Source of the DNA: Chloroflexota bacterium
GTDB lineage: Bacteria; Chloroflexota; Anaerolineae; Aggregatilineales; Phototrophicaceae
Length of the DNA: 64,000 nucleotides
NCBI GenBank assembly: GCA_011523615.1
Contig: WTGJ01000027.1
Span: 297,632 to 361,631, forward strand
Direction: 5' to 3'
Shown here: piece after piece, positions 39,007-51,086 of the stretch
Layout: the number at the start of each line of letters is the position of its first letter
Position numbering within the stretch: the stretch's first letter is position 1
Notes under the pieces: generated by a model
Told to the model about the DNA's origin: nothing
The model's database searches: none
Seen by the model: only the letters and a program-made list of their open reading frames with translations
Made by a program: the position numbers and the translations under genes

Positions 39007-39750
39007 TTAGGAAGAGAGCAAAATCAATCCCAAAAGGGCCAACAGGATGAGCAACAATCCTTCAAACAGCTGCGCATTGATTCGTTTCAGGCCCAGGTAA
39101 CCGATCGAGAATCCCACGGGGATCAAGAAAAAGACCCAGGCGATGGGCCAGATGCGATCGAACTGCAAGACACCGCCACCCAAGTAACCGGGCACTTTCA
39201 ACGCATTGATCAGAAAGAAGAACAGGGTGGCTGTGCCGACAAACATCCGGGGTTGCATATCGGGTTGCAGCAACATGTATGCTGTGAAAGGGGCCGCGCC
39301 GGAGTTCGCCAAGGCTGCGCCAAAAGCCGAACCCCAACCTGCCAAAGAACCATGCCAGGCCCTGGGTCGGTAATTCCAGGCATTGGCTTTGTCTCCGATC
39401 AACTTGTAGGCAATCATCAACAGGGTGAAACCGCCGATGACGCGGCGCAAAGAAGCATCCGGCAAGATCAGCAACACCAACGTACCCGAAATGATGCCCA
39501 CCGTGGCTGCCGGCAATAGCAGCCGCAGGTAATGATGCGACCATTTCCGCCAATACAATCGCAGTGCCAACAGATCAGCAAAAAGCAACATCGGCAGAAC
39601 AATGCCCATCGCATCGGCCGCTGGCATGACCAGGGTCAGGATGGGGGCAGCCATCGAGCCGGGTACGGGCCCACCCAAACCCCCTTTGGATATGCCAATC
39701 AACAACGCGGCCAGGATCAGAAAGAGGGTGATTTCCATGCGGCCAGCCAT
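39007..39750 (-). CDS. TauE/SafE-family membrane permease
   Basis: 247 residues (ATG 39738 would give 243). The family pattern is two repeats of four helices with GISKGGLGGPVPGSMAAPIL near the N-terminus and GWGSAFGAALANSGAAPFTAY in the second half. Members export or import sulfite, sulfoacetate and other organic anions. It follows the dihydropyrimidinase gene at 54 bases on the same strand, so it may move a product or intermediate of that pathway; this is inference. Confidence 0.85.
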   Translation of the reverse strand: MAGRMEITLFLILAALLIGISKGGLGGPVPGSMAAPILTLVMPAADAMGIVLPMLLFADLLALRLYWRKWSHHYLRLLLPAATVGIISGTLVLLILPDASLRRVIGGFTLLMIAYKLIGDKANAWNYRPRAWHGSLAGWGSAFGAALANSGAAPFTAYMLLQPDMQPRMFVGTATLFFFLINALKVPGYLGGGVLQFDRIWPIAWVFFLIPVGFSIGYLGLKRINAQLFEGLLLILLALLGLILLSS

Positions 39751-39804: not shown

Positions 39805-41280
39805 TTACAGGATGGCTGCGTTCGCTTTTCGGGGGATGTAACGACCGTTGCCGTTTCTACCATGCCATTCCTCCCCATCGACCAGCAGATTGCCCCGTTG
39901 ATACACTCGAATTGGCTTGCCACGGATCTGCATCCCTTCGTACACGTTGTAATCGCAGCGCATGTGGCTGGTTGCTACACCCATGGTCATTTCCAGGTTG
40001 GGGTCCCATACCAGGATATCGGCGTCAGAACCCACTGCGATGGTCCCTTTTTGCGGATGCATGCCAAAGACGCGGGCGGGGTTGGTGCAATGCAGTTCAA
40101 CGAAGCGCTGAGGTGAAATCCGCCCTTGATTCACGCCGGCTTCCCACATGACCAACATGCGGTCTTCCAAGCCGGGCATTCCATTCGGGATTTTGCTGAA
40201 ATCGCCGCTGCCCAACTCTTTGCCCGGCCGGCGGTAACTGGGATCTTGCTTCTCATAATCCGCCCAATTCGTGCCGCCAGTTTTCTCTTGCCATTCCTGC
40301 CAGGGGCCATGCCCACCGTCGTACCAAAAATCGCAGTGATCGGTGCTGACCACCTGCAGGGTGCCGTCGTTCAAGGCGTTCCATAACGCTTCCTGGTCCG
40401 CTGCAGACCGAATCGGTGGCGAACAGACGTACTTCGCTCCTTCAAAACCGGGAGCGGCCAGGTGTTCATCCACGCTGAGGAAACAGTACTGGCAACAAGT
40501 CTCGCCCATTACGGGATAGCCGGCGTCACGACCACGGCGGAGCGCTTCCAGTGCGGGGATGCAAGTCATGTGCACCACATACAGCGGGCATTGAGCCAAA
40601 CCTGCGAGCACCACCGCACGGTTGGTCGCTTCGCCTTCGATCTCCGGCGGGCGGGAATCAGCGTGGAATTTCGGCGCCGTCTTCCCTGCCGCCAGCAATG
40701 CGGGGGTGAGCGCGGCTTCCACATCGCCATTCTCCGCGTGCACCATCACCAACATACCATGATCTGCCGCAATCCTCATCGTGCTGAACAGGGTGGCATC
40801 ATCGATTTGAAAGACGTTTTTATAGGCCATGAAGAGTTTCAGGCTGGTGATCCCTTCATCGAGCAAGGTGGGGATTTCCGCCCGTACGGCATCGTTCAAG
40901 TCGGTGATCGCCATGTGGTAGCCATAGTCAATCTGCGCCGTGGTGGATTTTGCCCGCCAGGTCGCCAGGCCATCTTGCAAACTGCCACCAATGGGTTGGA
41001 CGACGAAATCGATGTGAGTGGTGGTGCCGCCGAAAGCTGCTGCTTTGTGCCCGATGTCGAAGTCATCGTTGCTGATCGTCCCACCGAAGGGTAGATCCAG
41101 ATGAGTGTGCACATCGATGCCGCCGGGCATCAGGTAGAGGCCGGTGCAATCTTGCACTTCATGATTCGCGGTGGGCAAGTTTTCACCGATCTGTTCGATG
41201 GTCTCTCCTGCGATGAGGACATCGGTTGCTTTCATCTCCGTCGCCGTAATCAGCGTCCCATTTTTGAATAGGATTCCCAT
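39805..41280 (-). CDS. hydA: dihydropyrimidinase (D-hydantoinase)
   Basis: 491 residues, typical length. Metal ligands are visible: His58 and His60 (GGIDVHTHLDLP), the carboxylated Lys148 (ITSLKLFMAYKN), His181 (MVHAENGD), a His in YVVHMTC, and Asp in STDHCDFWYDGG. It hydrolyses dihydrouracil or dihydrothymine to N-carbamoyl-beta-amino acids in the cytoplasm. AGGAGGTTGGC precedes the ATG. The following genes (LLM oxidoreductase, beta-ureidopropionase, semialdehyde dehydrogenase) make the pyrimidine assignment stronger than a general hydantoinase role. Confidence 0.93.
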   Translation of the reverse strand: MGILFKNGTLITATEMKATDVLIAGETIEQIGENLPTANHEVQDCTGLYLMPGGIDVHTHLDLPFGGTISNDDFDIGHKAAAFGGTTTHIDFVVQPIGGSLQDGLATWRAKSTTAQIDYGYHMAITDLNDAVRAEIPTLLDEGITSLKLFMAYKNVFQIDDATLFSTMRIAADHGMLVMVHAENGDVEAALTPALLAAGKTAPKFHADSRPPEIEGEATNRAVVLAGLAQCPLYVVHMTCIPALEALRRGRDAGYPVMGETCCQYCFLSVDEHLAAPGFEGAKYVCSPPIRSAADQEALWNALNDGTLQVVSTDHCDFWYDGGHGPWQEWQEKTGGTNWADYEKQDPSYRRPGKELGSGDFSKIPNGMPGLEDRMLVMWEAGVNQGRISPQRFVELHCTNPARVFGMHPQKGTIAVGSDADILVWDPNLEMTMGVATSHMRCDYNVYEGMQIRGKPIRVYQRGNLLVDGEEWHGRNGNGRYIPRKANAAIL

Positions 41281-41308: not shown

Positions 41309-42304
41309 TCAAGTAAAATGCGGGATGATGTGGCTGCCATAGGCATCGACCATTCGTTCTTCCTCACCACACATCAGATAAATGTTGAATTGAGTGACGC
41401 CGACGTCTTTCAGTTGTTGCAGTTTGGCAATTTGTGCATCGACATCACCCAACAGGCTGAAGCTATCGGTGATGTCATCGGTGATGAAATCCAAATGTTC
41501 CGCGTCCTTATCCGCATGTTCGGCATAATCATAACCACGCCGGCCTTCGATGTAATCGGTTAAGGACTGGGGGACTTCAGCGGAAGCGCTGCCGTATTTT
41601 TGCACGATGTCGGCTACGTGATTGCCCACCATCGCGGGGAACCAGCGCGTCTGCTCGCGCGCTTTCTCCATTTCCCCTACCCAGACGGGTGCCGCGGCCA
41701 TGATGCCAAATTGAGACATATCCCGGCCCGCTTGTTGGCCGGCGCGCAAAGCCTGTTCGCTGAACCACTTGACCAGGAGCGGTTCCCCCAATTGGATCAC
41801 GAGGCCATCGCCGATCTCACCGGCTGTTTGCAGGGCTTTCGGGCCATATGCTGCGACCCAAATCGGCAAATCGTATCCTTCCGGCCAGGGGAGTTGTGTT
41901 TGCGTATCGTCGTAGCCGGCCGGATCACCACGCACCAAGGATTTTACGGTCTGAGTGAAATCTACCATCCTGGCGAGTGTGTTCGGTTTCTTCCCGAGCA
42001 CGCGGCGTGAACTGTCACCGCGGCCCAAACCCAGCTCGAATCGCCCTTCGCTTTGATGCAACAGGGTGGCATACAAGCTGGCTGCCACCGACCACTCTCG
42101 GACGCCGGGATTGGTGACCAGCGGGCCGAAAATCATACGCTCGGTATGTTCCATGCACATCGCCATCGTGACGTAACATTCCCGCCAGAGGACGTGAGAA
42201 TCGAAGAACCAAGCGTGACGGAAACCGGCGGCCTCTGCTTGTTGGCAAAGTGCAACCGTTCGTTGTGCGCTGATGTCGCCTTTAAATGTGATGCCGAAAT
42301 CCAT
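41309..42304 (-). CDS. LLM-family oxidoreductase (F420- or FMN-dependent) in the pyrimidine operon
   Basis: 331 residues. Luciferase-like TIM-barrel features are MDFGITFKGDISAQRTVALC, AWFFDSHVLWRECYVTMAM, FGPLVTNPGVREWSVAASLY, GRFELGLGRGDSSRR and LPIWVAAYGPKALQTAGEIG. The pattern is closest to the F420-dependent methylenetetrahydromethanopterin-reductase-like branch. It lies between beta-ureidopropionase (18 bases) and dihydropyrimidinase (28 bases). No dihydropyrimidine dehydrogenase is present in the window, so it may perform the first reduction of uracil or thymine. LLM enzymes also include RutA, the uracil ring-opening monooxygenase, but the downstream hydrolases fit a reductive route better. 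The function is inferred only. Confidence 0.85.
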   Translation of the reverse strand: MDFGITFKGDISAQRTVALCQQAEAAGFRHAWFFDSHVLWRECYVTMAMCMEHTERMIFGPLVTNPGVREWSVAASLYATLLHQSEGRFELGLGRGDSSRRVLGKKPNTLARMVDFTQTVKSLVRGDPAGYDDTQTQLPWPEGYDLPIWVAAYGPKALQTAGEIGDGLVIQLGEPLLVKWFSEQALRAGQQAGRDMSQFGIMAAAPVWVGEMEKAREQTRWFPAMVGNHVADIVQKYGSASAEVPQSLTDYIEGRRGYDYAEHADKDAEHLDFITDDITDSFSLLGDVDAQIAKLQQLKDVGVTQFNIYLMCGEEERMVDAYGSHIIPHFT

Positions 42305-42322: not shown

Positions 42323-43180
42323 TTAGGCTGAAGAAACTGTATCTTGAGTCAAGAGATCATATTGATCCGGCCGGCGGTTGAAGTAAAAGCTCCAGGTGTC
42401 CCGCACTTCCTGGATCAGAGAGAGATCCATATCGCGGATGATCAATTCTTCATCATGTGCGCTGGCGACATCACCGATGAATTGGCCTTTGGGGTCACAG
42501 AAGTAACTTTCGCCATAAAAATCGTTTTCGCCCCAGGGTTCGATGCCGACCCGATTGATTGTGCCGACAAAATAGGTGTTGAATATGGCGTGCGCCGTCT
42601 GCTCCACTCGCCATAGATGCTGGCTGAGTCCCCGGGAAGTTGCCGACGGGATGAAAACCATTTCCGCACCGTTCAAACCGAGCGCCCTCGCCCCTTCCGG
42701 GAAGTGACGATCGTGGCAAATGTACACGCCAACTTTACCCACAGCGGTATCAAAGACGGGGTAGCCGAGATTGCCGGGCCGAAAATAGAATTTCTCCCAA
42801 AAGCCGGGCAAATGAGGGATGTGCGTTTTGCGGTACTTGCCCAAATACGTACCATCGGCATCGATCACAGCGCCGGTGTTGTAATACACTCCCACCCCAT
42901 CTTGCTCATACATGGAGGCGACGAGCACCAAATTCAACTCCTGAGCGAGTTTTTGCAGGCGCTCGGTAGTCGGCCCGTCTGGGATGGCTTCGGTGAAGCG
43001 GAAGAATTCGGGATCTTGTACCTGGCAAAAATAAGGCCCGTAGAATAGTTCCTGGAAGCACATGATTTGTGCTCCCTCATCGGCCGCCTTTTTCGCATAC
43101 TCTTCGTGCTTGACGATCATCGATTCCTTATCACCCGTCCAAGTCGCTTGGAGGAGTGCACCGCGGACTATGCGAGACAT
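42323..43180 (-). CDS. pydC: beta-ureidopropionase-like N-carbamoyl amidohydrolase (nitrilase superfamily)
   Basis: 285 residues. The catalytic triad is Glu44 (CFQELFYGPYFC), Lys118 (GKYRKTHIPH) and Cys155 (VGVYICHDRHFPEGARALG). FQELFYGPYFCQ and the HIPHLPGFWEKFYFRPG segment are characteristic of the N-carbamoyl-beta-alanine / N-carbamoylputrescine branch. In this operon it should release beta-alanine, CO2 and ammonia from N-carbamoyl-beta-alanine. A GGAG ribosome-binding site precedes the ATG. Confidence 0.93.
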   Translation of the reverse strand: MSRIVRGALLQATWTGDKESMIVKHEEYAKKAADEGAQIMCFQELFYGPYFCQVQDPEFFRFTEAIPDGPTTERLQKLAQELNLVLVASMYEQDGVGVYYNTGAVIDADGTYLGKYRKTHIPHLPGFWEKFYFRPGNLGYPVFDTAVGKVGVYICHDRHFPEGARALGLNGAEMVFIPSATSRGLSQHLWRVEQTAHAIFNTYFVGTINRVGIEPWGENDFYGESYFCDPKGQFIGDVASAHDEELIIRDMDLSLIQEVRDTWSFYFNRRPDQYDLLTQDTVSSA

Positions 43181-43209: not shown

Positions 43210-43569
43210 TCAACCGGCATTGGATTGTGCTGCATGTTCGCGAGCGCACCGTTGCAGGACGCGTTGCGCCTGCCGCACGTTGATTTTCGGTGAAGCATCC
43301 TGGAAAAAAGCAGTGGCAGCTGCTTCTTTATCTCGTAGGTCCGTGCTCACATCATGCAGCTCTGCGTAATCGGTGACCGCCAATCCATGTATGGGTTCCA
43401 ATGTGATTTCCAGGACATGTTCTGCGCGGGTGCGCTCCAAACGAAGCCGGCGTCGATCCGCGGCCTTGGCTTCCGCAGCCATGCCGGTTTCGCGGTAGGC
43501 ATCCCGCAGCAGGGTTTCGATTTCTATGGCATAAGTGAGCACGGCGCCAAAGGTGTTCAATTCTCGCAT
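43210..43569 (-). CDS. hypothetical helical protein, possibly ferritin-like
   Basis: 119 residues, predicted almost entirely helical and rich in Arg, Ala and Glu. The start, NTFGAVLTYAIEIETLLRDA, is reminiscent of the first helix of rubrerythrin/ferritin-like proteins (Glu-rich helix after FGAVL), but the ExxH metal pair is incomplete. Not otherwise recognised. It lies seven bases after the semialdehyde dehydrogenase and 29 bases before beta-ureidopropionase on the same strand, so it belongs to the pyrimidine operon. Confidence 0.65.
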   Translation of the reverse strand: MRELNTFGAVLTYAIEIETLLRDAYRETGMAAEAKAADRRRLRLERTRAEHVLEITLEPIHGLAVTDYAELHDVSTDLRDKEAAATAFFQDASPKINVRQAQRVLQRCAREHAAQSNAG

Positions 43570-43576
43570 TGAATCT

Positions 43577-45028
43577 TCACACCCAGCGCTCGATCACGAC
43601 TTTTCGTTCCGTGAAGAATTCGATGGAATCCGCACCCTGGCCATGCAGATCGCCAAAAAACGAATCCTTTTGACCGCCAAATGGGAAGGAAGCGGATGGC
43701 GCGGCCACGCCGATGTTGACGCCAATGTTGCCGGCATTCACATGGTATTTGAATTCTCTGGCGTAATTGCCGTTGGAAGTGAAAATGCTCGCTCCGTTGC
43801 CAAATTTGCTGCCATTGATGAGCTCAATGGCTTCATCAAAGGTATCTGCCTTCATCAAAGACAACACGGGGCCGAAGATCTCTTCACGGGCAACGGACAT
43901 CTCCGGTGTTACATCGGCGAGGATGGTCGGCCCGACGAAGGAACCACCTTCATAACCGTCCACATCGACGCTTCGTCCATCCACCAATACTTCTGCGCCG
44001 GCCGCTTCTCCTTCCGAGATCATGTGCTCAATTCGTTCTCGCGCTGCGTCACTGACGACCGAACCCATCTGTGAGCTTTCATCCAGACCATAGCCGACGC
44101 GCAGCTGTTGGGCCTGGCTGCGCAACTTTTCCTTCAGCGGTTCGTAGGCATCCCCTACCCCGACGGCCACCGCAGCGGCCAGGCAACGTTGCCCCGCGCA
44201 ACCATAGGCGGCGCCCAAGATGTTCATCACGCTGGCATCCAGATTGGCATCCGGCATGACGGCGATGTAGTTTTTCGCGCCGCCTTGAGCCTGGACTCGT
44301 TTCCCGTTGCGGGTACAGGTCTCATACACAATTTTGGCTACGGGAGTGGAACCGACGAAAGAGACCCCCGTCACTCCCGGATGTTCCATTAGGGCTGTTG
44401 ATGCGGCAACTCCACCATGGACGAGATTGACCACACCTTCCGGCAAATCCAAGTCATCCAACATTTCCAAAATCAACTGTGCGCTCAAAGGAGTCTGCGG
44501 CGATGGTTTGAGGATGAAGGTATTGCCGCATACAATCGCCACCGGCAGGAACCAGAGTGGCACCATGGAGGGAAAGTTAAAGGGCGTGATGGCGACGAAA
44601 ACTCCCGCGGGTTGGCGCACAGTGGTTTCATCGATGCCCGAACTGATATCTTCTACCCCGTCATTGCGCATCAAAAACGGAACGCCCAGGGCGAAATCGA
44701 TGCTTTCGATGCCCCGGCGCACCTCACCCCGCGCCTCATCCATGGTTTTGCCATTTTCGATGACGATGGTTCGAGCGACTTCTTCAAACCGATCTTCCAT
44801 TTGGACTTTGAAGTGGTGCATGTATTGTGCTCGACTCAACAGCGGGGTCTGTCGCCATTCAGCAAAACCGGCCCGAGCTGCCTGAACAGCATGATCCACA
44901 TCGGCCTGGTTCGACTCAGGGCAGAGAGCCAGCAACTCACAAGTGGCTGGATTGTGCACTGGCAGAGCGTCGATACCGGCAGCGTCCACCCATTCACCAT
45001 CGATGTAATTCTGGATTCTGCTGGCCAT
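43577..45028 (-). CDS. mmsA: CoA-acylating (methyl)malonate-semialdehyde dehydrogenase
   Basis: 483 residues. Aldehyde dehydrogenase fold with TPFNFPSMVPLWFLPVAIVC, cofactor motif FVGSTPVA and nucleophile Cys282 in GCAGQRCLAAAVAV. FPFGGQKDSFFGDLHGQG and an N-terminal NYIDGEW are typical of the MmsA branch. The enzyme converts malonate semialdehyde (from beta-alanine) to acetyl-CoA and CO2, or methylmalonate semialdehyde (from thymine) to propionyl-CoA, which suits the rest of the operon. It is the first gene, downstream of a promoter overlapped by a palindrome. Confidence 0.93.
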   Translation of the reverse strand: MASRIQNYIDGEWVDAAGIDALPVHNPATCELLALCPESNQADVDHAVQAARAGFAEWRQTPLLSRAQYMHHFKVQMEDRFEEVARTIVIENGKTMDEARGEVRRGIESIDFALGVPFLMRNDGVEDISSGIDETTVRQPAGVFVAITPFNFPSMVPLWFLPVAIVCGNTFILKPSPQTPLSAQLILEMLDDLDLPEGVVNLVHGGVAASTALMEHPGVTGVSFVGSTPVAKIVYETCTRNGKRVQAQGGAKNYIAVMPDANLDASVMNILGAAYGCAGQRCLAAAVAVGVGDAYEPLKEKLRSQAQQLRVGYGLDESSQMGSVVSDAARERIEHMISEGEAAGAEVLVDGRSVDVDGYEGGSFVGPTILADVTPEMSVAREEIFGPVLSLMKADTFDEAIELINGSKFGNGASIFTSNGNYAREFKYHVNAGNIGVNIGVAAPSASFPFGGQKDSFFGDLHGQGADSIEFFTERKVVIERWV

Positions 45029-45193: not shown

Positions 45194-46480
45194 ATGTCCG
45201 TTGCCAATCAGGTCCTCGAACGATATGAACGGGTGATCTTTCCCGCAGCCAAACCTTATCATGAGGCTCCTCTGGTGGTGAGCCACGCCAAGGATCAATA
45301 CGTTTGGGATGTGGATGATCGACGTTATCTCGATTTTTTCGGTGGGGTGCTCACCATCAGTTGCGGACATTGCAACGATGAGATCACCCAGCGCGTCGCC
45401 AATCAACTGCGCACCCTGCAACACACCACCACGTTGTATGTGAACGAGATCATGGTGCAAGTGGCGGAAAAGGTGGCTGAACTCACCCCCGGTCGCTTGG
45501 AGAAATGCTATTTCACCAACAGCGGCTCCGAGGCCATCGAGACCGCCATCCTGGCCGCTCGGATGTACACCGGGAATTCCACTGTGATTGCTTTGCGACA
45601 TGGTTACTCGGGTCGAACCTTGCAAGCCATGAGCCTGACCGCGCACAGCAATTGGCGGCTGGGGAACGTCGTCGATGCGAATGTGCGTCATGTACGGAAC
45701 CCCTACCAATACCGCGCGCCGGAATGGCTGAGTGAAGATGAACTGGTGGAGTTATGCGTGGAGGACTTGGAAGAAACGATCGCCACCACCACCCAGGGAA
45801 AGATCGCTGCTTTTTTGGCCGAACCCATCCAAGGGGTGGGTGGTTTTGTGACGCCGCCAAAATCCTATTTTGAGCGCATCCTGCCCATCGTGCGGAAGGC
45901 AGGGGGGGTGTTCATCGCCGACGAGATACAGACGGGTTGGGGCCGCACCGGCGGCAAGTGGTGTGGCATCGAGCATTGGGGAGTGCAACCGGACATCATG
46001 ACGTTTGCCAAAGGCATGGCCAATGGCTCACCGATCGGTTGTACGGTGGCGATCCCCGAAGTGGCGGATGCCTTGGCCGGTTCCACTTTCTCCACCTTCG
46101 GCGGCAATCCCGTTACGATGGCGAGTGCATTGGCCACCATCGAATACATGGAAGAACATGATTTGCCCACCAACGCCGCGGTCAGAGGTGCGAGACTATC
46201 GGAACGTTTGGAAGAATTCGCTCAGGAATTCAATTTCGTCGGTGAGGCGCGTGGGATGGGCCTCATGCAAGGTTTGGAATTGGTGAAACCGGGCGGAAAA
46301 GAACCCGATCCAGCCCGGGCCAACGCCATGATTGATGCCGCAAAATCGCGCGGTTTGTTGATCGGCAAAGGCGGCCTCTATAACAACGTCTTGCGCATCG
46401 CTCCTCACCTGAATGTCTCGGCGCAGGATATTGAGACGGGTTGCGACATCATCGCACAAGCCCTGGTTGACATTTCATAA
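45194..46480 (+). CDS. class III aminotransferase, beta-alanine/alanine-glyoxylate aminotransferase-like
   Basis: 428 residues. The N-terminal FPAAKPYHEAPLVVSHAKDQ and the substrate region are of the AGXT2/beta-alanine-pyruvate type. PLP residues are FTNSGSEAIETA, ADEIQTGWGRTG, and Schiff-base Lys273 in FAKGMANGSPIG. In context it should transfer the amino group of beta-alanine to give malonate semialdehyde for the dehydrogenase encoded across the divergent promoter. It is 16 bases upstream of the first importer gene. Confidence 0.9.
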   Translation: MSVANQVLERYERVIFPAAKPYHEAPLVVSHAKDQYVWDVDDRRYLDFFGGVLTISCGHCNDEITQRVANQLRTLQHTTTLYVNEIMVQVAEKVAELTPGRLEKCYFTNSGSEAIETAILAARMYTGNSTVIALRHGYSGRTLQAMSLTAHSNWRLGNVVDANVRHVRNPYQYRAPEWLSEDELVELCVEDLEETIATTTQGKIAAFLAEPIQGVGGFVTPPKSYFERILPIVRKAGGVFIADEIQTGWGRTGGKWCGIEHWGVQPDIMTFAKGMANGSPIGCTVAIPEVADALAGSTFSTFGGNPVTMASALATIEYMEEHDLPTNAAVRGARLSERLEEFAQEFNFVGEARGMGLMQGLELVKPGGKEPDPARANAMIDAAKSRGLLIGKGGLYNNVLRIAPHLNVSAQDIETGCDIIAQALVDIS

Positions 46481-46496
46481 GACGATGTTCTAGTTC

Positions 46497-48230
46497 ATGA
46501 GTTCATGGCTCGCACCGGCAGGAGTAAGACGGGAGTGGCGGAAATTGCTCCCAGTTGCCATGGTGTTCCTCATTGCGGTGTGGCAATTCTCCATTGCGAG
46601 TTCCTGGCTGCAGAACCGGGAAGATGCTCCTGCGGTCACAGAATCCACTCTGGGCCAACTGGTGCTTTGGCTCCTGGAACAGGCAGAGGATGAAGAACCG
46701 AGATCCCTTCTGGGGCAGTTGGCCCGTGCTCGTTTCGAGGAGACAGGTGATCTCGAAAAACTGACGATTCAACTGCTGTCGGCGGTTTGCTGGCTGCACA
46801 TCGTGCTCAGCACTGGGAACTGCTTCCTTGCGCTCGCTATCGCTTACGCAATTTGGCGCAACTGGCAGCGGTTGCCGGTCGCAATGGCCATTTTGATATT
46901 GGCAAATGGTGCTCACCTGTTCCTGTATTCACCCGCTGCGAGTCCATGGCTGTTTCAAAGCATCATCGCGCTCGGCTGGCTCATCCTGGTGATTCTGTTT
47001 TTGCATCCGACCGCCAAGAATCGAATCGTGGCTTTCCTCGCGATCGTGAGTGTGTTGCTGCTCGGTTGGGAGACGATCAAACTGGCGGCTGAGTTGCTCG
47101 ATTATCGAGTGACGCGGCCCCTGCCAGATTGGCAATATGAAACCCGAGCGGATCTAACCAGCGCTCTGGATCAATTGGCTGCGGGAGAGGTCGATATCGT
47201 GATCGCTGACCGTCGGCTATTGGATGATCTGATGCCACCGCACCCTGCCACCGATCGACAAACAGAAGAAGAACGAAATGCCCTTCCCAGGCAAGAGCTC
47301 CGCTACGAACGCGTCTTCAATCGTTCGGAGCGGTATCTGTTCTTCCCGGTCGAGCCGGCGGTCTTGCCGAGGCTTTCGATTGCCGTTCGCGCAGCAGATG
47401 CAGGACGCTGGACCTCGACCGCCGATTTACGCTCCTTGAAGATGGTTACCGATGAAGGCAGCTTCGCCGATGAGAGATATCTCGCAGAACCGCGATCGTT
47501 GGTGCTCTTGAATCTGCGCATCTTCAATGATCTGAATTTACCCCACCTTCAATCCATCGCGCAGGCCTTCCTGCAACCGGCACGGCGCAACGGCCCCTTC
47601 TTGCTGATCAGCATTTTGAGTGGTGCGGGGCTATTCACCTTATCGGAAGCTGCTCTGGGGTTTGCGATAGGCGCTGCGCTGGGTTTTGTCTTGGGTACGA
47701 TTTTCGCCCATTCGCCTTTTCTGGAACGTTCCCTGCTCCCCTTTGTGGTTGCTTCACAGACCGTACCCATTCTCGCTTTTGCACCGATGGTGGTCATCTG
47801 GTTGGGCGCAAGCGCGGTATCGGTAGCCGTCATCGCCGCTTATTTGACTTTTTTCCCGGTCACGATCAACACTTTGCGCGGTCTGCTTTCCCCTAGCCCA
47901 ATCGCGCTGGAGTTGATGCGTTCTTATGCCGCCAGTCGTCTGGAAACGCTATGGAAACTCCGGATACCGGCGGCACTCCCCTACATTTTCACGGCGCTCA
48001 AGGTTTCCGCCACCGCGAGCGTGGTGGGCGCCATCATTGGCGAATTGCCTTCCGGGATTTCTGCCGGTTTGGGGCGGGCAATTTTGAACTTTTCTTCCGA
48101 TTACAGCTTGGTTTCCACGCCAAAACTCTGGGCCAGCATCGTCACCGCGGCGGGGATCGGGATCTTATTCTTTGTGACGGTTTCGTTGGTGGAAGGGCGC
48201 GCATTGAGACAGGCAAGAAATGTCAGCTGA
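46497..48230 (+). CDS. ABC importer permease with an unusual N-terminal membrane and soluble extension
   Basis: 577 residues against about 260 for its paralogue at 49043. The last 200 residues are a standard SsuC/TauC/ThiX-type permease, with EAA loop LMRSYAASRLETLWKLRI (about 473-490) and six helices. Before it are five extra hydrophobic segments (about 17-36, 92-118, 125-143, 150-170, 176-196) and a hydrophilic stretch of about 155 residues (210-365). Phrases such as AAGEVDIVIADRR and RLSIAVRAAD there recall part of a periplasmic binding-protein fold. The extension may be a built-in receptor or sensor. It forms an operon with an ATPase, a second permease and an NMT1-type binding protein. 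Confidence 0.85.
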   Translation: MSSWLAPAGVRREWRKLLPVAMVFLIAVWQFSIASSWLQNREDAPAVTESTLGQLVLWLLEQAEDEEPRSLLGQLARARFEETGDLEKLTIQLLSAVCWLHIVLSTGNCFLALAIAYAIWRNWQRLPVAMAILILANGAHLFLYSPAASPWLFQSIIALGWLILVILFLHPTAKNRIVAFLAIVSVLLLGWETIKLAAELLDYRVTRPLPDWQYETRADLTSALDQLAAGEVDIVIADRRLLDDLMPPHPATDRQTEEERNALPRQELRYERVFNRSERYLFFPVEPAVLPRLSIAVRAADAGRWTSTADLRSLKMVTDEGSFADERYLAEPRSLVLLNLRIFNDLNLPHLQSIAQAFLQPARRNGPFLLISILSGAGLFTLSEAALGFAIGAALGFVLGTIFAHSPFLERSLLPFVVASQTVPILAFAPMVVIWLGASAVSVAVIAAYLTFFPVTINTLRGLLSPSPIALELMRSYAASRLETLWKLRIPAALPYIFTALKVSATASVVGAIIGELPSGISAGLGRAILNFSSDYSLVSTPKLWASIVTAAGIGILFFVTVSLVEGRALRQARNVS

Positions 48231-48245: not shown

Positions 48246-49046
48246 TTGATGTCGGAAACAAAGTGCGAGCCTGTGATCCAGGTGGATCGAGTCCACAAAG
48301 TTTTCAACCCCGAAAGCGAGAATCGCGTCGTCGCGCTCAGTGATTTCACCCTTGCGGTGGAGCGTGGTGAGTTCATTTCATTGATCGGCCCTTCGGGTTG
48401 TGGCAAGTCAACTTTGTTGCGCTTGATGGCGGATTTGCTCACCCTCCAAGAAGGAGAGTTGAAGATCAATGGAAAATTGCCAGCGGAGGCACGGTTGGAT
48501 CGGGATTATGGATTTGTGTTCCAGGCGGCGACCTTGTACGACTGGCGAACCGTCAGCAAGAATGTGCAGTTGCCTTTGGAGATCATGAAGTATCCGAAAG
48601 CGGAACGGGAAGCGCGAGCGCGCGAATTATTGGCGCTGGTCGAACTTGAAGGCTTTGAGAAGCATTATCCGTGGCAACTCTCCGGCGGTATGCAACAAAG
48701 AGTCGCCATCGCCCGCGCTTTGGTGTTTGAGCCTACCCTGTTGTTGATGGATGAGCCCTTCGGTGCCCTGGATGAATTCACCCGCGAGCGGATGAACATG
48801 GAGCTGATGCGCATCTGGGAGCAGAAAGATCTGACGGTAATCTTCGTGACGCACAGCATTCCCGAAGCGGTGTTCCTCTCCACCCGCATTGTGGTGATGT
48901 CGGCCCGACCTGGGCGGATCATCAAGATCGTCAAAAACGAGGTGGAATACCCGCGCGTATTTGCTTCACGAAAAACCCAGCAGTATTACGAAACCGTCAA
49001 TGAGGTTCGGGAAGCGTTGGCGTCAGCGCATAGTTACGAAATATGA
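48246..49046 (+). CDS. ABC importer ATPase (SsuB/TauB/ThiZ family)
   Basis: 266 residues starting at ATG 48249 or the TTG at 48246. Walker A GPSGCGKST, Q-loop VFQAATLYDWRTV, signature LSGGMQQRV, Walker B LLLMDEPFGALD, and the H-loop FVTHSIPEAV. This is the nitrate/sulfonate/pyrimidine-precursor branch. Its stop overlaps the start of the next permease. It energises the importer formed by the two permeases around it. Confidence 0.92.
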   Translation: MMSETKCEPVIQVDRVHKVFNPESENRVVALSDFTLAVERGEFISLIGPSGCGKSTLLRLMADLLTLQEGELKINGKLPAEARLDRDYGFVFQAATLYDWRTVSKNVQLPLEIMKYPKAEREARARELLALVELEGFEKHYPWQLSGGMQQRVAIARALVFEPTLLLMDEPFGALDEFTRERMNMELMRIWEQKDLTVIFVTHSIPEAVFLSTRIVVMSARPGRIIKIVKNEVEYPRVFASRKTQQYYETVNEVREALASAHSYEI

Positions 49047-49873
49047 AAGGGCAAATTTTCGCTCGGGTATTGCGTTTCTTCCAAAAATATGCCCCATCCA
49101 TCACTCTGGCGGTCGGCGTCCTCGTGTTTTGGGAAGTGGTGGTCACGGTTTTTGCCATCCAACAGTTCCTCTTGCCAAAACCATCGGCCATCCTCACCGA
49201 ATATCTGAACGAATTACGCTTGTTTTTGGATCCAGCAGGTGCCTCACTGCTCTTCGAAGCCAGTGGCGCAACTTTGCGAGAGGCGATCGGCGGATTTGTG
49301 ATTGGCTGCGGCAGTGGCATCGGCATCGCTTTGTTGACCGCTCGCTGGACTGCAGTCAATCAAGCCTTGATGCCCTTCGCCATCGCGGCCAACTCCGTGC
49401 CGATCATCGCCTTTGCGCCGATCATGAACAACTGGTTCGGGATCACCAACCCTTTCTCGAAGATGGCCATCGTATCGATCATTGTTTTCTTCCCCACCAT
49501 GATCAATACCGTGCGTGGGTTGACGCTGATCGACCCCAATCAGCTGGAGCTCATGCATTCCTACGCGGCGAGCCCGATGCGCATCATGCGGGACTTGCGC
49601 ATTCCGAATGCCTTGCCATATATCTTTAGCGCTTTACGAATCGCGAGTTCATTGAGTGTGGTGGGTGCCATCGTTGGTGAATTCTTTGGAGGACCGTTAT
49701 GGGCGACCCTGGGTGATTTTATCACTCAAGAAGCGAGCAGATTTAATTTCGCGAGGGCCTGGTCCGCTATCATCATGGCTTCGCTGATCGGGCTTTCCAT
49801 GTATTTTGTGGTGTTGGCTTTGGAACGTTGGCTGATGCCCTGGCATGTTTCATTCAGAACGGACTCGTCATAA
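49043..49873 (+). CDS. ABC importer permease (SsuC/TauC/ThiX family)
   Basis: 276 residues, standard length, six helices. LPKPSAILTEYLNELRLF near the N-terminus, EAA loop LMHSYAASPMRIMRDLRI, then LPYIFSALRIASSLSVVGAI. It overlaps the ATPase stop by four bases and pairs with the extended permease upstream, giving a heteromeric channel. Confidence 0.92.
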   Translation: MKGQIFARVLRFFQKYAPSITLAVGVLVFWEVVVTVFAIQQFLLPKPSAILTEYLNELRLFLDPAGASLLFEASGATLREAIGGFVIGCGSGIGIALLTARWTAVNQALMPFAIAANSVPIIAFAPIMNNWFGITNPFSKMAIVSIIVFFPTMINTVRGLTLIDPNQLELMHSYAASPMRIMRDLRIPNALPYIFSALRIASSLSVVGAIVGEFFGGPLWATLGDFITQEASRFNFARAWSAIIMASLIGLSMYFVVLALERWLMPWHVSFRTDSS

Positions 49874-49997: not shown

Positions 49998-51086
49998 ATG
50001 CGCAGAATGGTTGGGTTTCTTGTATTGGCGTCATTGCTGAGTGTCGCAGCTGGCGCCCAAGCTCAGGACGATCTGGTTGAAATTCGGCTGCAGTTGCAAT
50101 GGGTGACGCAATCCCAGTTTGCGGGATATTACGCCGCAAGAGATTTGGGTTTCTTTGAGGAGGAAGGCCTCGATGTCACCATTCTCGAAGGGGCGGTCGA
50201 ATTGGTGCCACAACAGGTGGTGGCCTCCGGTGGCGCAGAATTTGGCCTTTCCTGGGTGCCCAAAGTGTTGGAATCCAATGAAGCCGGCGTCAACCTGGTG
50301 AACATCGCCCAGGTCTTCCAACGCAGCGGCACGTTGATGGTTTCCTTCGTCGATACCGGTGTGGAAACCGTGGAAGATTTTGCCGGGCTGCGTGTCGGTA
50401 CCTGGGGTTTCGGCAATGAGCATGAGTTGTTTGCCGCCATGCGCGCCGTCGGGATCGATCCCCAAAATCCCAATGACGTAACAATCATCAGGCAACCTTT
50501 CGATATGTCTCAGCTACATAATCATGAGTTGGATGTGGCCCAGGCCATGACCTACAACGAATACGCGCAGGTTTTGGAACAGGTCAATCCCGATACGGGT
50601 GAGTTGTATCAACCGGAAGATCTCAACGTGATTGATTTCAATGAAGTGGGTACCGCGATGTTGCAAGATCTGGTCTTCGCCAGCGCTGATTGGCTGGCGG
50701 AAGAAGGGAATGAAGAAATTGCCGTCGCTTTCTTGCGCGGAGCGTTCCGTGGTTGGATCCATTGTCGGGAAAATTTCGATGAGTGCGTCGAAATCGTGCT
50801 GGATAACGGCTCCACCCTGGGTGAAAGCCATCAACAATGGCAGTTGAATGAAATCAACAAACTCATCTGGCCATCACCCAATGGCATTGGCATCATGAAT
50901 CCGGATTTGTGGGAGCAAACGGTGGCCGTGGCCATCGATGGTGGTGTGATCATGGAAGAACCACATGAAGGCTCCTATCGCACCGATCTGGCACAGGCAG
51001 CGCTGGATTCGCTCAGTGAAGAGTACGATGTCATCGGTGATATGTGGGTACCTGAGTATATTGCGCTCCGTGAAGGCGGCAACTGA
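49998..51086 (+). CDS. NMT1/THI5-type ABC substrate-binding protein
   Basis: 362 residues with a signal peptide (1-22, ending GAQAQ). The mature N-terminus IRLQLQWVTQSQFAGYYAAR, then DLGFFEEEGLDVTILEG, is typical of the NMT1/THI5 family, whose members bind pyrimidine precursors of thiamine, riboflavin, nitrate or sulfonates. Strong ribosome-binding site GGAGAGGAGGAG. Its operon is divergent from the pyrimidine-degradation genes, so uracil, thymine or a related pyrimidine is the likely ligand. Thiamine-precursor uptake cannot be excluded, but no thi gene or TPP riboswitch is seen. Confidence 0.88.
   Translation: MRRMVGFLVLASLLSVAAGAQAQDDLVEIRLQLQWVTQSQFAGYYAARDLGFFEEEGLDVTILEGAVELVPQQVVASGGAEFGLSWVPKVLESNEAGVNLVNIAQVFQRSGTLMVSFVDTGVETVEDFAGLRVGTWGFGNEHELFAAMRAVGIDPQNPNDVTIIRQPFDMSQLHNHELDVAQAMTYNEYAQVLEQVNPDTGELYQPEDLNVIDFNEVGTAMLQDLVFASADWLAEEGNEEIAVAFLRGAFRGWIHCRENFDECVEIVLDNGSTLGESHQQWQLNEINKLIWPSPNGIGIMNPDLWEQTVAVAIDGGVIMEEPHEGSYRTDLAQAALDSLSEEYDVIGDMWVPEYIALREGGN

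Follow-up and report, generated by a model that had tools for sequence, protein, structure and literature searches.

The LLM-family oxidoreductase encoded at positions 41309..42304 on the minus strand of the analysed window (the whole 64,000 nt stretch of Chloroflexota DNA) is predicted from its sequence and gene context, with a probability of about 0.72, to be an F420H2-dependent dihydropyrimidine dehydrogenase for which NpdG would supply the F420H2. It probably represents a new kind of uracil/thymine reductase, because it occupies the place of the usual reductase in a probable operon for reductive pyrimidine breakdown, and because the gene travels with F420 genes in unrelated bacteria. An earlier note on this DNA had raised F420H2-dependent uracil or thymine reduction as a possibility, and the linkage of the genes, seen in more than one phylum, now supports this reading well. 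It remains a prediction: we infer from the operon and the genome context that uracil or thymine is the substrate, how the hydride is transferred and which way the reaction runs.

The operon and its neighbouring genes

The following features were assigned in the window:

39007..39750 (-), TauE/SafE-family permease, at the end of the operon (PF01925, 82 bits)
39805..41280 (-), dihydropyrimidinase / D-hydantoinase (HydA/PydB) (TIGR02033, 561 bits, cut-off 393; nearest solved chains D-hydantoinase/dihydropyrimidinase)
41309..42304 (-), LLM-family oxidoreductase of NCBIfam TIGR03842, proposed F420H2-dependent dihydropyrimidine (uracil/thymine) reductase (open reading frame, profile and fold)
42323..43180 (-), carbon-nitrogen hydrolase, probable beta-ureidopropionase (PydC) (CN_hydrolase, 204 bits)
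43210..43569 (-), 119-aa protein, conserved in this operon in Anaerolineae (no match in Pfam or NCBIfam)
43577..45028 (-), CoA-acylating (methyl)malonate-semialdehyde dehydrogenase MmsA (TIGR01722, 568 bits, cut-off 449)
45194..46480 (+), class-III aminotransferase, probable beta-alanine / beta-aminoisobutyrate transaminase (PF00202 at 321 bits, with none of the equivalog models over its cut-off)
46497..48230 (+), ABC importer permease, 577 aa (PF00528)
48246..49046 (+), ABC importer ATPase (PF00005)
49043..49873 (+), ABC importer permease (PF00528)
49998..51086 (+), NMT1/THI5-type substrate-binding protein, probable pyrimidine importer (PF09084, 121 bits)

In the direction of transcription the minus-strand operon runs MmsA, 119-aa protein, beta-ureidopropionase-like hydrolase, LLM, dihydropyrimidinase and TauE, with successive gaps of 7, 29, 18, 28 and 54 bp. 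The LLM gene is the fourth of the six, with 18 bp between it and the beta-ureidopropionase-like gene on one side and 28 bp between it and the dihydropyrimidinase gene on the other, and a 165 bp region separates the operon from the divergent set of class-III aminotransferase, two permeases, ATPase and NMT1-type binding protein. The position of the LLM gene in the middle of the cluster and the presence of dihydropyrimidinase, beta-ureidopropionase-like, aminotransferase and MmsA genes were both as the earlier note had described them. The solved chains nearest to the PydC candidate were an N-carbamoylputrescine amidase (204 bits) and relatives of beta-ureidopropionase (180 and 165 bits), and its probable assignment as beta-ureidopropionase comes from family and context, since the sequence does not fix the exact substrate. 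The TIGR02033 match of HydA falls into two stretches with an unmatched part after approximately residue 322, which is also present in close relatives, and this protein thus seems to carry a lineage-specific insertion. The 119-aa protein between MmsA and PydC is kept in 24 of the 40 Chloroflexota-type loci among the best 80 of 585 LLM loci (see below).

According to the proposed pathway, the NMT1-type importer would take up the pyrimidine, and NpdG, an NADPH:F420 oxidoreductase, would reduce F420 with NADPH. The LLM enzyme would use F420H2 to deliver a hydride to the C6 position of uracil or thymine while C5 is protonated, and the ring of the resulting dihydrouracil or dihydrothymine would be opened by the dihydropyrimidinase. 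The beta-ureidopropionase-like hydrolase would subsequently release beta-alanine or beta-aminoisobutyrate, which the aminotransferase may convert to malonate or methylmalonate semialdehyde, and MmsA to acetyl-CoA or propionyl-CoA. The steps from the dihydropyrimidinase onward follow established enzyme families, and the first step is the one that we infer.

Search for dihydropyrimidine dehydrogenase and F420 genes in the host genome

The earlier note had pointed out that the expected two-subunit dehydrogenase is absent from the cluster, and for the PreA part this absence extended to the host genome (a 2.64-Mb draft, 94% complete), where PF01180 (DHO_dh) matched a single protein (C11:6800-7588) and the PreA model NF006183 gave no match at E≤1e-30. 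The single protein has PRK07259 as its best model (below the cut-off of that model), is without a ferredoxin domain and has dihydroorotate dehydrogenases as its nearest solved chains, and the gene upstream has a weak PyrK-type Fe-S match. We rejected it as a hidden PreA, as this sole member of the DHO_dh family is of PyrD type. With one PyrD-type protein and no PreA match, this draft genome therefore did not yield the canonical enzyme for the first step of the reductive pathway. A dihydropyrimidinase and a CN hydrolase are both present in the window. The window LLM and the known dihydropyrimidine dehydrogenases (PydA/PreAT/PydAc) would share a reaction and a place in the pathway ahead of dihydropyrimidinase and beta-ureidopropionase. 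PydA and PreA belong to the dihydroorotate dehydrogenase family and contain FMN and Fe-S clusters, whereas the window LLM is a TIM barrel without such domains, with F420H2 as its proposed donor. NADPH-, NADH- and ferredoxin-dependent variants of PydA have been described, and the word F420 is absent from the portion of that paper that was available (PMC7332683).

A search for F420 genes, as the earlier note had proposed, found cofC (149 bits, cut-off 105), cofD (304 bits, cut-off 257), cofE (244 bits, cut-off 181) and npdG (219 bits, cut-off 150) in one cluster at approximately C19:419.5-424.2 kb. A second LLM gene (L010:4535-5542), which did not pass TIGR03842 (89 bits), is in the same cluster, and so are genes resembling xanthine dehydrogenase and one for an SsnA-type amidohydrolase. 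The region around C19:400-415 kb contains housekeeping genes. A CofD-like gene at C19:158183 was rejected as a sign of F420 synthesis, as it is of the YvcK type (TIGR01826, 335 bits). In the wider region (L010:804-10755, C19 ~415.8-425.8 kb), cofC, cofD, cofE and npdG occur along with an FbiB-C-terminal-like protein with the second Mer-like LLM, and this arrangement agrees with a uric-acid cluster with a putative F420 'yanthine reductase' that has been proposed for Chloroflexota (PMC12507026). That proposal, made in 2025 from gene neighbourhoods, places an F420-dependent LLM in Chloroflexota SsnA (uric acid) clusters, and it resembles ours in that Chloroflexota would have an F420 LLM instead of a reductive enzyme that is PydA-like or YgfK (PMC12507026). 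It differs in concerning a purine pathway, and the LLM of the SsnA-type cluster of the host is not a TIGR03842 member. The 'yanthine reductase' is the nearest precedent that we found, for the principle, in purine breakdown.

Conservation of the gene neighbourhood in Chloroflexota

The host itself probably belongs to the Anaerolineae. A genome of the same family (G240) contains the orthologous locus, and its LLM protein is identical to that of a named Anaerolineae MAG. A TIGR03842 LLM was present in 52 of the 301 Chloroflexota genomes drawn. cofD was detected in 191 of the 301 genomes, comprising 46 of the 52 with the LLM and 145 of the 249 without it (Fisher p 1.5e-5); it was not found in six LLM genomes (G107, G123, G163, G250, G285 and G299), in a set with many drafts, and in one of these six (G250) the LLM gene is flanked by a CofE-like gene. 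The 51 LLM neighbourhoods other than that of the host (≤20 kb, with tally thresholds chosen by us) contained HydA in 42 cases, nitrilase-type PydC in 35, an aminotransferase in 27, NMT1 in 21 and MmsA in 17, and these tallies are lower bounds since many contigs are short. Dihydropyrimidinase was lacking in nine neighbourhoods, several of which are on short contigs. The co-occurrence with hydA and pydC that the earlier note had suggested surveying is thus widespread in Chloroflexota, and was accompanied by an npdG-LLM linkage in Proteobacteria (see below). Chance clustering of the LLM gene with pyrimidine genes was rejected, as the same partners recur in most of the 51 neighbourhoods and in other phyla.

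Linkage to F420 operons in other phyla

A scan of named genomes gave 585 LLM loci, of which the best 80 were analysed: 40 of the Chloroflexota type and 40 others, mostly from Proteobacteria. Within these best 80, the Chloroflexota-type loci had dihydropyrimidinase or PydC in 33 of 40 and F420 genes in none, and F420 genes were present in 30 of the 40 other loci. In 28 of these 40, npdG immediately precedes the LLM gene on the same strand, and 15 have cofG, cofH, cofD, cofE and npdG together. Within the fetched flanks, 17 of the 40 have a dihydropyrimidinase-like gene and 16 an M20 carbamoylase, and F420 genes are combined with a ring-opening or carbamoylase gene in 15. These tallies, with thresholds of our own choice, are again lower bounds because of the many short contigs. 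The clearest case is a Rhodobacteraceae MAG (L149), with a single run of cofG-cofH-cofD-cofC-cofE-npdG-LLM-carbamoylase-HydA (580 bits)-ABC importer-NMT1. Vibrio tetraodonis (L137) has cofG-cofH-cofD-cofC-cofE-npdG-LLM, with a dihydropyrimidinase ~13 kb from this cassette and, by its coordinates, on the same contig. Neither ring-opening nor F420 genes were near the LLM gene in 13 of the 80 best loci; in one of these, L115, genes for an acyl-CoA dehydrogenase and for an ammonium transporter are nearby in their place.

At the genome level, cofD was detected in 48 of the 50 LLM genomes tested from the named set (with loci from the best 80 of 585), in 43 of them over the cut-off; it was not found in the remaining two, in a set with many drafts. 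In a draw of 289 alphaproteobacterial genomes, four had the LLM and 44 had cofD, and all four LLM genomes were among the latter (p 4.8e-4). We therefore predict from the co-occurrence with cofD and the adjacency to npdG that the window LLM probably uses F420. The window clade and the F420-linked proteobacterial clade are on one branch (a set of 59 rows, SH-aLRT 99) when 132 family members are placed in a tree; this tree was made by a quick method without a mixture model and has several long branches, which makes its deep joins unsure.

Further arrangements were noted in single genomes. Two LLM genes of the family stand side by side behind npdG in a MAG from the Alphaproteobacteria (L160:9962-11904, 454 and 362 bits), and another genome (G546) has four matches to the TIGR03842 family. 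An LLM-HydA pair on a contig filed as Pleurocapsa minor (Cyanobacteriota; L135) clusters with Anaerolineae, and this bin may be contaminated.

Distribution of PreA, and other candidate substrates

Genomes with an LLM locus among the best 80 of 585 mostly have a dihydropyrimidinase and no PreA: HydA was present in 75 of 80, and PreA passed its cut-off in five (G058, G313, G314 Shimia, G336 Burkholderia and G345 Roseibium). Any PreA match at E≤1e-30 was seen in 28 of the 80, many of these being partial, and four matches were just under the cut-off of 335 (285-294 bits; G031, G131, G155 and G203). Pseudovibrio axinellae (G317) gave no PreA match, and the matches in two Cohaesibacter strains (G339 and G340) were weak and of DHO_dh type. 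In the alphaproteobacterial draw, 82 of the 289 genomes had a dihydropyrimidinase, 46 of which had PreA, and of the 41 genomes from loci L135-L175, 39 had a dihydropyrimidinase, four of these with PreA. The contrast in HydA-bearing genomes between 4 of 39 (LLM set) and 45 of 79 is a rough guide only, as the taxa differ between the sets, and no more than hints that one of LLM and PreA stands in for the other across genomes. Canonical PreA and F420-linked LLM are both present in Shimia, Burkholderia and Roseibium (L139, L161 and L170 of G314, G336 and G345). In Shimia, PreA and HydA are ~3 kb apart on a separate contig from the F420-LLM cassette, which is without HydA, and this may reflect redundancy or a different substrate.

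Such a different substrate could be another cyclic ureide or unsaturated N-heterocycle, such as a hydantoin precursor or a modified pyrimidine, with the LLM as its F420H2-dependent reductase, HydA as a hydantoinase and the carbamoylase acting on an N-carbamoyl amino acid. Hydantoins are also substrates of D-hydantoinases and carbamoylases, TIGR02033 spans both D-hydantoinase and dihydropyrimidinase, and the nearest solved relatives of HydA carry both names. The type of carbamoylase also varies by lineage (nitrilase type in Chloroflexota and M20 type in Proteobacteria), and the few LLM genomes that retain PreA fit this reading as well. We nevertheless regard it as rather unlikely, since MmsA and the class-III aminotransferase fit malonate and methylmalonate semialdehyde, which derive from uracil and thymine, and since most LLM genomes are without PreA despite having HydA.

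Relationship of the LLM protein to Mer and other F420 enzymes

The LLM gene of the window is an intact open reading frame of 331 aa with an ATG start, which corresponds exactly to 41309..42304(-). Its product scored 468 bits against TIGR03842, over the curated cut-off of 295.45 and across residues 2-330, and its only Pfam match, over the gathering score, was Bac_luciferase (PF00296, 178 bits). This makes it a member of the LLM superfamily, and the DHO_dh and ferredoxin domains that mark PydA/PreA were not found in it. The TIGR03842 model ('F420_CPS_4043') is a hypothetical equivalog described as an LLM class F420-dependent oxidoreductase, with no function stated. The AlphaFold2 model of the protein (pLDDT 90, pTM 0.89) had six Mer entries as its first fold neighbours (Z ~36, rmsd 2.5 over ~312 residues). 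The 15 best rows were all F420 enzymes (Z 29-36), with FMN enzymes at Z 28 and below.

The fold neighbours also include a secondary alcohol dehydrogenase and glucose-6-phosphate dehydrogenases, and the known F420 enzymes of the LLM type act on alcohols, sugars and C1 carriers. This would suit an F420-dependent enzyme of a later step, such as the reduction of malonate semialdehyde or another carbonyl, with the first step performed by an unrecognised enzyme. We consider this very unlikely: the semialdehyde is already handled by MmsA in the operon, the LLM gene stays beside dihydropyrimidinase in lineages that have loci without MmsA, and no other recurring reductase candidate was seen around the LLM loci.

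The earlier note called the protein Mer-like, which held for the fold and failed for the function. Mer is the closest solved relative by sequence as well (~27% identity), and both would use F420 as hydride donor, as is the case for Mer and is proposed for the LLM. This closeness to the nearest characterised enzyme is what would favour a methylene-tetrahydromethanopterin reductase of C1 metabolism that is in the operon by chance. However, the two Mer models scored below their cut-offs (129 bits against 276 and 114 against 349), and Glu6 of Mer, which is mutated in entry 8qq8 and was placed by aligning the sequences of Mer and the window LLM, is replaced in all 132 family rows (Thr in 100, Cys in 31, Val in 1). 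The genome context also differs from that of Mer and a different substrate is expected, and the association with the operon is repeated in several phyla. A Mer function was rejected as highly improbable on the failed models and the loss of Glu6. With F420 enzymes at the top of the fold ranking and Glu6 replaced, the window LLM may be described as Mer-like by fold and probably by cofactor, not by substrate. An oxidative ring opening like that of RutA, an FMN/O2 oxygenase of the same superfamily that acts on uracil, is scarcely credible and was rejected, since the RutA chains are among the fold neighbours at Z ~26, far below Mer (Z 36) and other F420 enzymes, since in Proteobacteria an F420 operon ends with the LLM gene, and since a Rut pathway does not need the dihydropyrimidinase of the operon.

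For the uracil/thymine reductase reading, the conserved residues offer some candidates for catalysis. There are 52 positions conserved at ≥98.5% in the 132 family rows, among which are D35-S36-H37, W40, T64-N65-P66, R69, G94-R95-G96-D97-S98, Q171, W221-F222, N228-H229 and H263. As a guess, Thr/Cys6 or His37 could act as the proton donor at C5.

Implications and related reports

We lean towards a scenario in which an F420H2-dependent enzyme for the reduction of uracil and thymine evolved within the LLM superfamily, as a second origin of this activity, and in which it moved sideways in marine Proteobacteria as a self-contained cassette of F420 synthesis, the F420 recharging enzyme and the reductase, in some strains together with an importer and the remaining steps of pyrimidine breakdown. 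If true, such transfer would help to explain the scattered occurrence of F420 synthesis in Alphaproteobacteria, a Vibrio and a Burkholderia, providing a testable reason for it in scattered Proteobacteria, and F420 would gain a role in nitrogen scavenging. The reductive pathway would have one more electron donor and could start with an enzyme unrelated to the known one, due to which current annotation would overlook it in many Chloroflexota and in some of the Proteobacteria, and TIGR03842, a family without a function, would be given one. In applied work, a single-subunit uracil/thymine reductase without iron-sulfur clusters would be convenient for sensors and for the chemistry of fluoropyrimidines.

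The earlier note had considered the activity new to the LLM family, and no report of an F420-dependent uracil reductase was found in the open-licence literature that was searched. Neither CPS_4043/TIGR03842 nor CPS_RS18090 was named in the open-licence literature searched. An F420-dependent NADP reductase is mentioned for an Antarctic consortium (PMC4494151). In Colwellia psychrerythraea treated with cerulenin, a published study lists an 11-fold increase of the allantoate amidohydrolase CPS_RS18085 and a 4-fold increase of the NADPH-dependent F420 reductase CPS_RS18095 (PMC4744452). Judging by the tag numbers, the one tag between these two is probably CPS_4043, the namesake of TIGR03842.
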